From a bacterium (lineage in GTDB: Bacteria; Planctomycetota; UBA1135; GCA-002686595): a stretch of 39,350 nt of DNA. The notes under the pieces are model-generated. The model saw nothing but the letters and a program-made list of their open reading frames with translations. It had not been told where the DNA came from and searched no databases. A program made the translations under genes and the position numbers. Shown here piece by piece: positions 3,636-16,515 of the stretch (position 1 is the stretch's first letter; each line of letters begins with the position of its first letter). Where the stretch lies: NCBI GenBank assembly GCA_030428395.1, contig JAUIDW010000018.1:1-39350 (forward strand), read 5' to 3'.

Positions 3636-6600
3636 GCGGCGACGACGCGCGCCCGTCGATCCTGGATCGCGCGCTGGAGTTCTTCCTGCGCAACAAGCTC
3701 GTCGTGGCGCTGCTCACCGCGTTCACGGTCGTGTGGGGTCTGCTCGTGGCGCCGTTCGACTGGGAGCTCGCGAGCCTGCCGCGCGACCCGGTCCCCGTCG
3801 ACGCCATCCCCGACACCGGCGAGAACCAGCAGATCGTGTTCACCCCCTGGCCGGGACGCTCGCCCCAGGACGTCGAGGACCAGGTCACCTACCCGCTCAC
3901 GGTCGCGCTCCTCGGCGTCCCGGGGGTGCAGAGCATCCGCAGCAACTCGCTCTTCGGGTTCTCCTCGGTCTTCGTGATCTTCGACGAGGACGTCGAGTTC
4001 TACTGGTCGCGCAGCCGCCTGCTCGAGAAGCTGAACAGCCTGCCCGACGGGACGCTGCCGCCGGGCGTCCAGCCCGCGCTGGGGCCCGACGCGACCCCGC
4101 TCGGCCAGGTGTTCTGGTACACGCTCGAGGGGCGCGACGACGCGGGCCGCCCCGCCGGCGGCTGGGACCTGAACGAGCTGCGCACCGTCCAGGACTGGTA
4201 CGTGCGCTACGCGCTGGCGAGCGTCGAGGGCGTCGCCGAGGTCGCGTCGATCGGCGGGTACGTGCAGGAGTACCAGATCGACGTCGACCCCGACGCGATG
4301 CGCGCCCACGGCGTGACCCTGGAGCAGATCTTCCGGGCGGTGGCCGCGTCGAACGTGGACGTCGGGGCGCGCACGATCGAGGTCAACCGGGCGGAGTACG
4401 TCGTCCGCGGGCTCGGCCTGCTGGAGTCGATCGAGGACATCGAGCAGGTCGTCGTCGCGGTCGAGCGCCACGTCCCGATCACCCTGCGAGAGCTCGCCAC
4501 GGTGTCCCTGGGGCCGGCGCTGCGGCGGGGCGCCCTGGACAAGGGGGGCACGGAGGCCGTCGGCGGCGTCGTGGTGGCTCGCTACGGAGCCAACCCCATG
4601 GAGGTGCTCGACGCGGTGCGCGCGAAGCTCGAGCAGATCGCCCCGGGGATGCCGTCGAAGGACCTGGAGGACGGGCGCACGTCGCGGGTCACCGTCGTGC
4701 CCTTCTACGACCGCTCCGGCCTCATCCGGGAGACGCTGGGGACGCTCGACTCGGCCCTGCGCCTCGAGATCCTGGTCACGATCGTCGTCGTGCTGGTCAT
4801 GCTCGGGCACCTGCGCAGCGCCGTGCTGGTCTCGGGGCTGCTCCCGCTCGCGGTGCTGATGTGCTTCATCGCGATGAAGCACGTCGGGGTGGACGCCAAC
4901 ATCGTCGCGCTGTCGGGCATCGCCATCGCCATCGGCACGATGGTGGACGTCGGGATCGTGCTGACGGAGAACATCGTGAACCACGTGGAGCCCGGCCAGA
5001 CCGCGCGCGAGCGGCTCGAGAGCGTGCACCGCGGCGCGTCCGAGGTCGGTGGAGCGGTGCTCACGGCCGTCCTGACCACGGTGGTGGGGTTCCTGCCCGT
5101 GTTCGCGATGGAGGGCGCGGAGGGGAAGCTCTTCAAGCCGCTCGCGTACACGAAGACCTTCGCGCTCCTGGCCTCGATCGTCGTCGCGCTCGCGATCGTC
5201 CCGCCCGCGGCGCACTTGCTGCTGGGGCGCGGCCGCGAGCGGGGCGCGGGCGGCGGCGTCCGCGCCGCGCTCGCCCTCGTCGCCGCGGGTGCGCTGGCAG
5301 CCGTCGCGGTGCGCCCCTGGGTCGGCGCCCCGCTCGTGATCCTGGGGGCCTGGCGGCTCGCGGCCCCCCGGCTCCCCGCCCGCGTCCGCGCGGCGGCGGC
5401 CGGCGCCTCGGGGCTGGTGCTCGCGCTGCTCGTCGCCGCGCTCCTCGCGCGGCTGTGGGAGCCGCTGGGCCCGACCCGCGCGCTCGGCAACCTGCTCTTC
5501 ACCGCGGGCCTCCTCGGCGGCGTGCTGCTCCTCTTCCGCCTGGTGCTGGTCGTCTACGAGCCGGTCCTGCGCTGGTGCCTGCGCCACAAGCTGCTGTTCC
5601 TCGGGTTGCCGACGGGGCTCGTGCTGGCGGGGCTCGTGGTCTGGCTCGGCTTCGACCGGCTGGCCGCGCCGCTCGCGCGCCCGCTCGCCGGCGCGGCGAA
5701 CGCGGCCCGGACCGTGCTGCCGGCGTCCGTCGCCGGGGAGGGGAGGGCGACCGCCGACTCCGTTCGCCGGTGGCGTCCCTGGAGCGCGCTCGGGCACGCG
5801 TTCCCCGGGCTGGGCAGGGAGTTCATGCCCCCGCTGGACGAAGGCTCCTTCCTGCTGATGCCCGTCACCATGGCCCACGCCTCGATCGGCGAGGCGCTCG
5901 AGCTTATGCAGCTGCAGGACGTGCGCATCCGCGCCATCCCCGAGGTCGAGGAGGTCGTCGGGAAGATCGGGCGCGCCGAGAGCCCGCTGGACCCGGCGCC
6001 GATCTCGATGGTCGAGACCCTGATCACGTACCGCACGGAGTACGCGCAGGACGAGGCGGGTCGCCTGCTGCGCTTCGCCTGGGACGACGCGGCCGGCCGG
6101 CACGTCCGCGACGAGCGCGGAGCGCTCGTGCCCGACGAGGACGGGCGTCCGTTCCGCCAGTGGCGCGACCACGTGCACGGCCCGCCGGACATCTGGGCGG
6201 AGATCGAGCGGGCCGCGCGCGTACCCGGGATGACGACCGCGTCCATGCTGCAGCCGATCGAGACGCGCCGGATCATGCTGCAGACCGGCATGCGGGCCCC
6301 GATGGGCGTCAAGGTCCAGGGTCCGGACCTGGAGACGATCGAGCGCGTCGCGCTCGACCTCGAGCGGATGCTGAAGGAGGTGCCCTCCGTCCGGCCCGAG
6401 ACCGTCCTGGCCGACCGCGTGATCGGCAAGCCCTATCTCGAGATCGACATCGACCGCGCCGCGATCGCGCGGTACGGGCTGGCGGTCCGCGACGTCCAGG
6501 ACGTGATCGAGGTGGCGATCGGGGGCCGCCGGCTGACGACCACCGTGGAGGGACGCGAGCGCTACCCGGTGCGCGTGCGGTACCTGCGCGAGCTGCGCGA

Positions 6601-13924: not shown

Positions 13925-14413
13925 ATGCCCCCGAAGCGACGCTACTGGCTGTTCAAGTCCGAGCCCGACGCCTTCTCCTTCGACGACCTCTGGAAGGCGA
14001 AGAAGCGCACGACCCTGTGGGACGGCGTGCGCAACTACCAGGCCCGCAACCTGCTGCGGGACGACGTCCAGGTCGGCGACGGCGTGCTGTACTACCACTC
14101 GAGCTGCCAGCCTCCCGGCGTGGCCGGCATCGCCGAGGTCGTGCGCGCCGGCTATCCCGACCCGACGCAGTTCGACCCCGCGGACGCGCACCACGACCCC
14201 AAGAGCGACCCCGGGGACCCGCGCTGGTACGCCGTGGACATCCGCGCCGTCGCGAGGGGCGGGCGCTTCGTGCCGCTCGAGGAGCTGCGCGGCGAGCGCC
14301 GCCTGGCCGACATGGGCGTGCTGCGCCGGGGCAACCGCCTCTCCGTCCAGCCGGTGAGCGCCGCCGAGTGGAAGGTGGTGCTCGGCCTCCTCGGCCTGCC
14401 TTCCCGCTCCTGA
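13925..14413 (+). CDS. EVE domain protein (DUF55, PUA-like)
   Basis: A 162-aa single-domain protein. The start Y-W-L-F-K-S-E-P and the W-D-G-V-R-N-Y-Q-A-R-N-L-L-R motif at about 36-49 are hallmarks of the EVE family. So are the Y-Y-H-S-S-C segment and the V-A-G-I-A-E-V strand. EVE domains have a PUA-like fold and bind modified bases in DNA or RNA; the actual role of this stand-alone bacterial type is not settled. The ATG at 13925 has GACGAGGAG a short distance upstream. It follows the floA operon by 24 bases and may be read through from it. Confidence 0.88.
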   Translation: MPPKRRYWLFKSEPDAFSFDDLWKAKKRTTLWDGVRNYQARNLLRDDVQVGDGVLYYHSSCQPPGVAGIAEVVRAGYPDPTQFDPADAHHDPKSDPGDPRWYAVDIRAVARGGRFVPLEELRGERRLADMGVLRRGNRLSVQPVSAAEWKVVLGLLGLPSRS

Positions 14414-14708
14414 GCCCCCCGCGGCCGCCCGCGGGCCGACAGGGCGGTTTCGGGGTTCAACTGGTCGTCAACGGGGCCCCGAGTGGCGTCAGAGTGGGCG
14501 CCCACCGGCGCCGCGTGCCGCTCCCGGGACGCCCTCCAGGGCGCCTGCGGGGCCCTCGGAGGGGCCTGGGGCCTTGATCCCGACCCCCGAATGTGTCTCC
14601 TAGAGCCCTCGATCGCCGTTCGAGAAGGGCCCCCGGCGCGCCGGAGCTCGCTCGCAGGGGATCCCGACAACCCGAATCACCGAGGCCAGAAGGAAGGCAA
14701 GAGCACCC
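14414..14708 (+). other. 295-bp leader region before the histone-like gene
   Basis: No gene is seen here. It is rich in G/C inverted motifs just after the EVE stop (CCGCGGCCGCCCGCGG), which could end transcription. A TTGATC at 14574-14579 resembles a -35 element, but no good -10 lies at the proper distance; the nearest candidates are CTCCTA at 14597 and TAGAGC at 14601. AAGGAAGG about 10 bases before 14709 is the ribosome binding site of the next gene. Confidence 0.4.
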
Positions 14709-14891
14709 ATGACCCAGAACTACCAGAATCTGGTCGCGACCGTGGAGAACGCCCGCGAGGACGTCGAGAAGGCGGCCGCGGGCAACAAGGCCGCGTGCGC
14801 CCGGGTCCGCAAGGCCATGCAGGAGATCAAGTCCATCGCGCAGGACATCCGCAAGGAGATGCTGGAGCTGCGCGACTCGGGCGGGAACTGA
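14709..14891 (+). CDS. Histone H1/Hc1-like small nucleoid protein
   Basis: A 60-aa, wholly helical, Lys/Glu-rich protein. The central segment G-N-K-A-A-(C/A)-x-R-V-R-K-A-M-Q-E-I-K followed by A-Q-D-I-R-K-E matches the small bacterial histone H1-like (Hc1) family found in Chlamydiae, Bacteroidota and Planctomycetota, where such proteins are reported to bind and compact DNA or RNA. It lacks the Lys/Ala-rich repeat tail of long Hc1/Hc2 proteins, so it is the short core form. A strong ribosome binding site (AAGGAAGG) and a downstream pair of hairpins suggest a well-expressed single gene. Family assignment is by motif memory, not by a search. Confidence 0.75.
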   Translation: MTQNYQNLVATVENAREDVEKAAAGNKAACARVRKAMQEIKSIAQDIRKEMLELRDSGGN

Positions 14892-14910
14892 CGCCTGACC
14901 CCACCGTCCG

Positions 14911-14930
14911 CGCGGGCCCTCGGGCCCGCG
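14911..14930 (+). terminator. Hairpin after the histone-like gene
   Basis: An 8-bp perfect stem (14911-14918 with 14923-14930, loop CTCG) lies 19 bases after the stop. It has no T tract, so alone it is a weak terminator. It is followed by a second hairpin at 14942-14975. Confidence 0.4.
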
Positions 14931-14941
14931 ACGAAGCAACG

Positions 14942-14975
14942 GGACGCCCCTGGGCCACCGCGCCCGGGGGCGTCC
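14942..14975. terminator. GC-rich stem-loop, probable (bidirectional) terminator
   Basis: GGACGCCCC at 14942-14950 pairs perfectly with 14967-14975 (9 bp), with a further GGC/GCC pairing inside. It lies between convergent genes and directly abuts the inverted-repeat element. There is only a weak T-containing tail (TGTCA). Confidence 0.45.
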
Positions 14976-14982
14976 TGTCACA

Positions 14983-15206
14983 ACGGGACTGACTGGGTTC
15001 CGTGTGGACGGCGGATCCGGCGCCCGGCGCAACCCCCGCGCCCGACCGCGCCTGAGGCAGCCACCTCGCCGTCGAGGGCCCTGCGCCTCGCCCCCAGGAC
15101 GGGTCGAGGCGAGCGCTGCGCGGGGAAGTGGCCCGGCGAGGAGCGCGGCGCGGACGGGGCGGCGGCCCCCTGGCGGCGCGTCCACACGGAACCCAGTCAG
15201 TCCCGT
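14983..15206. repeat. 28-bp perfect inverted repeats enclosing 168 bp (MITE-like or invertible element)
   Basis: The 28 bases at 14983-15010 (beginning ACGGGACTGACTGGG) recur exactly, inverted, at 15179-15206. With one mismatch the arms extend outward to 32 bp (14979-15010 and 15179-15210). The arms are about 60% GC, clearly lower than the surroundings. The enclosed 168 bp has no convincing gene. No target-site duplication is evident next to the arms. The position between convergent genes fits a small non-autonomous mobile element, a recombinase-controlled invertible segment, or a long RNA hairpin shared by both 3' ends. Confidence 0.75.
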
Positions 15207-15285
15207 CGTGGGACCCGGCGGGGCTGCCTGGTGCCCTCGCCTCCCTCCGGGGCGCCCGTCGCGATCCCGGGCGCGGCGACGCCGC

Positions 15286-16515
15286 TCACGCGCCGGGCGC
15301 GCGGCCCGGGTCGGGGTCGCGCCCGGGCGCGAGGGCCAGGCGCGGGAGCGTCCAGCCCGCTCCCGTCCGGGCCAGCGGCCACGTGCGCAGCACGTCGGCG
15401 GGGGCCACGGCGCGGTACAGGTGGGGGAAGCGCTCGCCGCCGCGGGAGGGCTCGACGCGCAGGTCCGACGGACGCGGGTCGAGCTCGACCAGCACGAGCT
15501 CCGCGGTCTCCGCGAAGTGCGCGGCGAGCGTGCCCGCCAGCTGGTCGGCGTAGGAGAGGTGCACGAAGCCCTCGGCGGCGAGCGACGGGGGCGCGAGGCG
15601 GGCGCCGGGGTCGCGCTGCGCGGCCGCCAGGAAGGTGGCGCAGGCGGCGGGGTCGGCCAGGTGGAAGAGGCGGTCGTCCAGCACCGCGAGCGGAGCGTCC
15701 CCGCGCGGGACGAGCCCGGCGCGTTCCGCCTGCCGCGCCAGCTCGTCCAGGGCCGCGCGCGCGGTCGGGCCGAGGTGCTCGGTGTCGGAAGTGACGTACA
15801 GCTCGACGTGCTTCCACAGCACGGCGTCCGCGTGCTCCTGCGCGTGGCGGCGCATGGCCGGCAGCGCCGAGTCCGGGTCGCGCCGCGCGGCGGCGAGGGA
15901 GTCGGCCAGCACGGCGTGCACGCGCCGCGCGACGCCCGCGTCGAGGTCGCGGCGCGCGACCAGCCCGCCGAGCGGCAGGGGGGCGCCCGTGGCGTGCTCC
16001 CAGGTCTCGCCGAGGTCCTCGACCAGCTCGAGGCCCTGCTCGCGCCACGTGAAGCGGCCCTCGTGGATGCACACCCCGAGGTCCGCCTCGCCGCGGCGCA
16101 GGGCCGGGACGATCTCCGAGAACACGACGTGCTCGGGGCGCGCGTCGCCGGCGTGGAAGAGGCGCCACAGGAGCGCCGCGGTCGTGTGCTCGCCGGGCGC
16201 GAGGACGCGGCGCGCGGGCGACGCGCGGCCGGGCGCGCCGAGCACGACCGGGCCGACGCCGAACCCGAGCGCCGATCCCAGGGGCAGCACGCCGCGCGTG
16301 TCGCCGGCGGCCAGGGCGGCGGCGAAGCTGACCTTGGCGACGTCGAAGTCGCCGGCCAGCGCGCGGCGGTTCAGCTCCTCGACGTCCAGCAGCTCGACGT
16401 CGAAGGCCAGGCCGCGCCGGTCCACGCGGTCCTCGAGGAGCGCGGCGTACGCGTACGTGTCGTTGGGGCACGTCGACACGCCCAGGTGGACGCGCGTCTC
16501 GGCCGCCGCGGTCAC
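15286..16515 (-). CDS. mqnD: 1,4-dihydroxy-6-naphthoate synthase (MqnD) fused to a DUF952 domain
   Basis: A 409-aa two-domain protein. Residues 7-272 are MqnD, which converts cyclic dehypoxanthine futalosine to 1,4-dihydroxy-6-naphthoate in menaquinone synthesis. The signature S-T-C-P-N-D-T is at 14-20, with the D-V-E-L-L-D-V-E-E-L-N-R strand, V-A-K-V-S-F, and L-G-V-C-I-H-E-G-R-F-T. Residues 282-383 look like DUF952: L-F-H-L-A, then E-G-F-V-H-L-S-Y-A-D-Q, L-V-L-V-E-L-D, and F-P-H-L-Y. MqnD alone is normally about 270-290 aa, so this is a fusion; the frame is continuous without a break. The GTG start overlaps the mqnB stop (GTGA at 16512-16515), so the two menaquinone enzymes are co-translated. 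Confidence 0.88.
   Translation of the reverse strand: MTAAAETRVHLGVSTCPNDTYAYAALLEDRVDRRGLAFDVELLDVEELNRRALAGDFDVAKVSFAAALAAGDTRGVLPLGSALGFGVGPVVLGAPGRASPARRVLAPGEHTTAALLWRLFHAGDARPEHVVFSEIVPALRRGEADLGVCIHEGRFTWREQGLELVEDLGETWEHATGAPLPLGGLVARRDLDAGVARRVHAVLADSLAAARRDPDSALPAMRRHAQEHADAVLWKHVELYVTSDTEHLGPTARAALDELARQAERAGLVPRGDAPLAVLDDRLFHLADPAACATFLAAAQRDPGARLAPPSLAAEGFVHLSYADQLAGTLAAHFAETAELVLVELDPRPSDLRVEPSRGGERFPHLYRAVAPADVLRTWPLARTGAGWTLPRLALAPGRDPDPGRAPGA

Follow-up and report, generated by a model that had tools for sequence, protein, structure and literature searches.

A MITE family in an uncultured planctomycete, almost certainly derived from an IS1-like insertion sequence, and the persistence of its terminal repeats

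Two convergent genes of a planctomycete genome, one for a small Hc1-like basic protein and the other mqnD-like, are separated by a perfect inverted repeat, and the locus raises the question of what this repeat is and why its arms are so well kept. The window, meaning the whole stretch of DNA analysed (39,350 nucleotides), is contig C49 of a genome of 5.83 Mb in 554 contigs (G000). A sequence-only reading had offered three interpretations, namely a MITE-like element, an invertible segment and a double-stranded RNA end; the first is upheld below and the other two are not. The element is almost certainly a non-coding MITE derived from a 1.24-kb IS1-like insertion sequence (IS) of the same genome, and its identity as a MITE, taken by itself, can be stated with a shade more confidence still.

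The repeat, its locus and its family

The descriptive claims of the sequence-only reading proved accurate. The arms at 14983-15010 (ACGGGACTGACTGGGTTCCGTGTGGACG) and 15179-15206 are reverse complements at 28/28 positions, and extension to 14979-15210 gives 31/32, the single mismatch that had been described over 32 bp. The arms have 64% GC, clearly below the level of the very GC-rich surroundings, as noted, and the core is gene-free as claimed, since its ORFs are mechanical and the genes predicted by a codon-model caller lie on either side of it. The opinion that chance would not produce such a match is borne out by the 19-bp core of the arm (CTGACTGGGTTCCGTGTGG), which has 74 exact copies genome-wide (reversed-pattern control, 1). 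The parts of the locus are as follows.

14709..14891, + strand: gene for a small Hc1-like basic protein, left neighbour, kept beside mqnD in relatives
14939..14978, + strand: separate hairpin just 3' of the hc1-like gene, 17-nt arms, 88% complementary, outside the MITE
14985..15204, no strand: whole MITE copy, ~220 bp, with boundaries taken from the 9-bp target-duplication register of other members
14985..15008, + strand: left terminal repeat (TIR), conserved unit GRACTGACTGGGTTCCGTGTGGA (arm of the sequence-only reading, 14983-15010)
14989..15081, + strand: left subterminal part, with 73-79% identity to the left ends of the genome's 1.24-kb insertion sequences
15009..15180, no strand: non-coding core, diverged among copies (mean 64% identity), with no covarying RNA structure
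15181..15204, - strand: right TIR (arm of the sequence-only reading, 15179-15206)
15286..16515, - strand: mqnD-like gene, right neighbour, convergent, placed by the codon-model gene caller

The boundaries were moved inward to about 14985-15204 because of the target-duplication register of well-preserved members, and the 2 bp at the outer end of either 28-bp arm probably belong to the flank rather than to the element.

BLAST of this region of the window against its own genome returned dozens of relatives. The TIR core occurs there at 96 sites (74 exact, 14 with one mismatch, 6 with two and 2 with three), so that the multiple copies which the earlier reading had proposed to look for are present as 74 exact and 22 near copies. 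Most sites form inward-facing pairs with a span of ~210 bp, other pairs span 66, 189-201 or 237-269 bp, and a few arms are solitary, some of them at recognisable remnants; we put the family at about 35-45 MITE copies in this planctomycete genome. The short element is thus non-coding, bounded by TIRs and present in many copies, as a MITE is. One 66-bp element (L044, C204:21005-21070) has two intact arms and forms a near-complete hairpin, its 14-bp inner parts being almost perfectly complementary. In a second genome of the same family but another genus (G033), elements of 157 bp have this TIR at their ends, and 29 of them were aligned; at one mismatch or fewer the TIR was found in 9/154 genomes of the order. 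A search of the plasmid collection gave no match, and the core sequence occurs in none of the papers searched.

The hc1-like/mqnD convergent pair is kept in seven relatives with nothing arm-like between the genes, the best match to the TIR core in their intergenic regions having 6-10 mismatches out of 19. The gap measures 66-229 bp in six of them, 791 bp as computed in the seventh and 394 bp here. The empty sites anticipated by the earlier reading are therefore found, though in other genera, at a distance where the exact insertion junction cannot be aligned; given these empty regions, insertion in the lineage of the window is the simplest account. The wider arrangement of an EVE-domain-like gene, the small Hc1-like gene and convergent mqnD (window 13925-16515) shows synteny across at least seven of the family's genera.

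An action mainly as RNA, either as a shared 3' terminator or as a long double-stranded end of the hc1-like and mqnD transcripts, is in keeping with the convergent genes at this locus, and is physically possible in that the strand gives a more stable fold than shuffled versions of itself (z = -5.2), as expected of such an inverted repeat. It is nevertheless very improbable. The relatives have the same gene pair without the element, and a terminator-like hairpin lacking a T run (14939-14978) already follows hc1. All 31 paired copies called in the genome are intergenic, and they are not confined to convergent pairs: 9 lie between convergent genes, 12 in tandem and 8 in divergent regions, with two at contig ends, and no terminator bias was found in the placement of the 31. 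Since members sit equally in tandem and divergent regions, a role as terminator or as simple promoter does not suit every copy. Consensus folding of the copies gave no interior covariation beyond the invariant arms, and an Rfam search no match above threshold.

The partner insertion sequence and the target duplications

Several TIR pairs of the same genome lie 1236-1237 bp apart and enclose an ORF of 349 aa, which delimits an IS of ~1.24 kb; near-identical TIRs around a transposase gene are the matching ends that the earlier reading had suggested seeking. The genome holds 13 full or partial copies of the transposase, homologues occur in 32/61 genomes searched (this one included), and a scan of the contig collection gave two relatives. 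The protein has an N-terminal cysteine (Zn-binding) motif, an HTH region and an RNase H-like DDE core, with D125, D214 and an acidic residue near 256 in an N253/H254 context conserved in most members as the predicted catalytic core. It matches no Pfam family at threshold; against the IS1 model NF033558 it scores 27.2 bits, short of the curated cut-off of 100, and that model is the best family match for 17/18 members. An AlphaFold model (mean pLDDT 83.5) has the ISCth4 transposase and retroviral integrases as its nearest solved structures, and a PDB search by sequence gave nothing useful. The transposase is distantly IS1-like and has a DDE/integrase fold.

The partner shares with the IS1/IS1595 family the cysteine motif, the HTH region, the RNase H-like DDE core and a 9-bp target duplication, the length usual for IS1, and differs in its single 349-aa ORF, its TIR and its score below the cut-off. 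We call it IS1-like because the IS1 domain order and 9-bp duplication are present but the curated score is not reached. A large family of such transposases with no Pfam model at threshold (L065, L066, L067, L071 and L072, with relatives L111-L129) occurs in several families within a single planctomycete order; its more distant members have TIRs of the related form ACTGnC..., and in one of the family (L115) the ends carry a perfect direct repeat of 11 bp.

Over its left ~93 bp the window copy matches the IS left end at 73-79% identity, and at the right end the resemblance covers the TIR and a further ~10-20 bp only. With matching TIRs and an IS-derived left end, the small elements are best understood as copies of the IS that have lost their internal part.

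Target duplications were sought by comparing the flanks of 36 elements in every register with permuted pairings. Only one register stood clearly above the permuted flanks (z = 6.0), and in it the duplication is 9 bp long and lies outside element ends of the form NGRA-CTGACTGG. Perfect (GGCCCGCTC/GGCCCGCTC) and imperfect (TGACGGTCA/TGATGGTCA) examples occur among the MITEs, a perfect TAATCCTAC pair was found in G033, and one IS copy has an 8/9 duplication (TTCGCTATC/TTCGGTATC) in the register of the MITEs; the other IS copies gave no readable duplication in the flank comparison. A copy with a perfect 9-bp duplication (L036) adjoins, in its left flank (C199, ~5240-5440), an apparent ~100-bp tandem duplication. 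The window copy itself has no recognisable duplication (0/9), like many others, and its presumed insertion rests on family membership and the empty sites in other genera.

These marks also bear on the suggestion that a site-specific recombinase flips the segment. Perfect inverted repeats around a short core are what such a segment would have, but the family has dozens of copies scattered through the genome, a 9-bp target duplication and a partner transposase of DDE type. These are the marks of a transposon and explain the arms, and neither a recombinase associated with the arms nor an inverted allele was found; we give this interpretation next to no weight.

The history that we favour runs as follows. 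An IS lost its internal part and left a non-coding MITE that kept the TIRs. We infer that the IS transposase, which would recognise the ~22-bp TIR and make the 9-bp duplications, moved the MITE in trans, and one copy inserted between the hc1-like and mqnD genes in the lineage of the window. The family expanded long ago, and the duplication of the window copy has since become unreadable.

Conservation of the arms

In 24 aligned copies the arms have a mean identity of 99.6% versus 64% for the interiors. Disjoint closest pairs differ at 512/2002 interior positions (25.6%) and at 2/456 arm positions (0.44%; p = 2e-48). No pair of copies in the genome is below 10% interior divergence, and the family is therefore an old burst rather than one in current movement. 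The duplications offer a second measure: for ten copies with recognisable duplications, three of them with just 6/9 and some of these possibly by chance, duplication decay predicts ~38 neutral arm substitutions and 0 were seen; the expectation is 19 for copies with at least 7/9 and 6.3 for those with at least 8/9. The contrast is weaker in G033 (25.5% interior, 2.6% arms), and it is also smaller among the IS copies (arms 3.2%, subterminal 19%, coding 10.6%).

Detection bias was considered as a cause and rejected, as queries with the interior only return copies with intact arms. Among the best 40 candidates scored for one such query, 13 other copies appeared, all of them known pairs, with a single mismatch in their 26 arms taken together; the best 40 for a second query held one further known copy and a weak 54-bp match away from arms that is probably chance. 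No clear armless copy was found among these candidates.

Directly repeated solo arms occur upstream of plsY. Contigs C94 and C156 hold two versions of one plsY-upstream region, 94% identical, which may be strain variants or paralogues, and each has three direct TIR-core copies between plsY and a hydantoinase-like gene.

L049:205-292 (C94): three direct TIR-core copies
L060:388-474 (C156): three direct TIR-core copies

The arms are spaced by 39-40 and 29 bp. Between the two versions 57/57 arm bases are identical and 8/30 spacer positions differ (Fisher p = 1e-4), as do many positions downstream. Because direct arms form no hairpin and, lacking an opposite arm, no transposable unit, this conservation points to DNA read by a protein.

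We consider that the arms are probably selected in place. They would be kept by selection copy by copy while the remainder drifts, through a sequence-specific DNA-binding protein that may still use the TIR, be it the transposase, a relative of it, a host regulator or an architectural protein. That a putative protein-binding site is the reason for the selection, with the binding and the host benefit it supposes, we infer at even confidence. More tentatively, and at somewhat less than even confidence, an old and now quiet MITE burst may have scattered ~80 copies of a 22-bp end that were domesticated as binding sites of one protein, which could be a regulator, of transposase or host origin, or a protein that organises the chromosome. 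These ends would persist in pairs, singly, and in triplets of direct repeats upstream of genes.

An ordinary MITE family with no host function, its arms conserved by selection for mobility until each copy landed, is an unlikely but appreciable alternative. Selection for mobility predicts that the arms of the IS are more conserved than its subterminal DNA, as they are (3.2% vs 19%), and the arms of G033 do vary more (2.6%). Against this, no pair in the home genome is younger than the 10% interior divergence given above, copies whose arms are perfect have decayed duplications, and the conserved direct solo arms make no transposable unit. Pre-insertion selection for mobility could be part of the cause and explains some of the pattern, but it accounts for neither the direct solo arms nor the decayed duplications.

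Concerted evolution, by gene conversion or by arm-by-arm correction during replication, might instead keep the arms identical with no selection. Many copies share one genome, one arm of a pair could serve as template for the other, and at positions -1 and -4, immediately beyond the core, a slight correlation within copies agrees with it. Correction from arm to arm predicts, however, drift between copies, which is not seen; the 19-22-bp tract is short for gene conversion; and direct-repeat arms are conserved too. We regard this process as improbable, and selection in place as the better account.

Bacterial MITEs such as Chunjie, QMITE and MITEAba12 (PMC10969869) resemble the family in being under 500 bp, non-coding, intergenic and present in tens of copies, with TIRs that match an autonomous element and direct repeats in the better preserved copies. 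Unlike them, the present family is GC-rich rather than AT-rich, has a distant IS1-like transposase as its partner, and has arms that far outlast interior and duplications and occur solo and in direct orientation. The Correia elements of Neisseria (CREE/NEMIS) are likewise small, TIR-bounded intergenic repeats, and their ends and internal sites are reused in regulation, as promoters, an IHF site and RNase III cleavage at the TIRs (PMC10969869, PMC2229807). They differ in TIR, size and target duplication, and in the present family conservation at the RNA level is absent and no binding protein is known; we would regard them as the best functional parallel, by function alone, and membership is not claimed.

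The result is a new MITE/IS pair in uncultured Planctomycetota that accounts for the inverted repeat, together with a transposase family covered by no Pfam model. The MITE family is new and its kind known, and the behaviour of the arms is the part worth following. If the arms are truly selected in place, the family would be a clear-cut example from bacteria of a transposon that has spread binding sites across a whole genome, and the decay of the target duplications would serve as an internal clock by which the claim can be measured.

In another genome of the comparison (G091), nearly all arms share the variant CTGCCTGGGTTCCGTGTGG, which suggests that a different version of the TIR is fixed in each genome.
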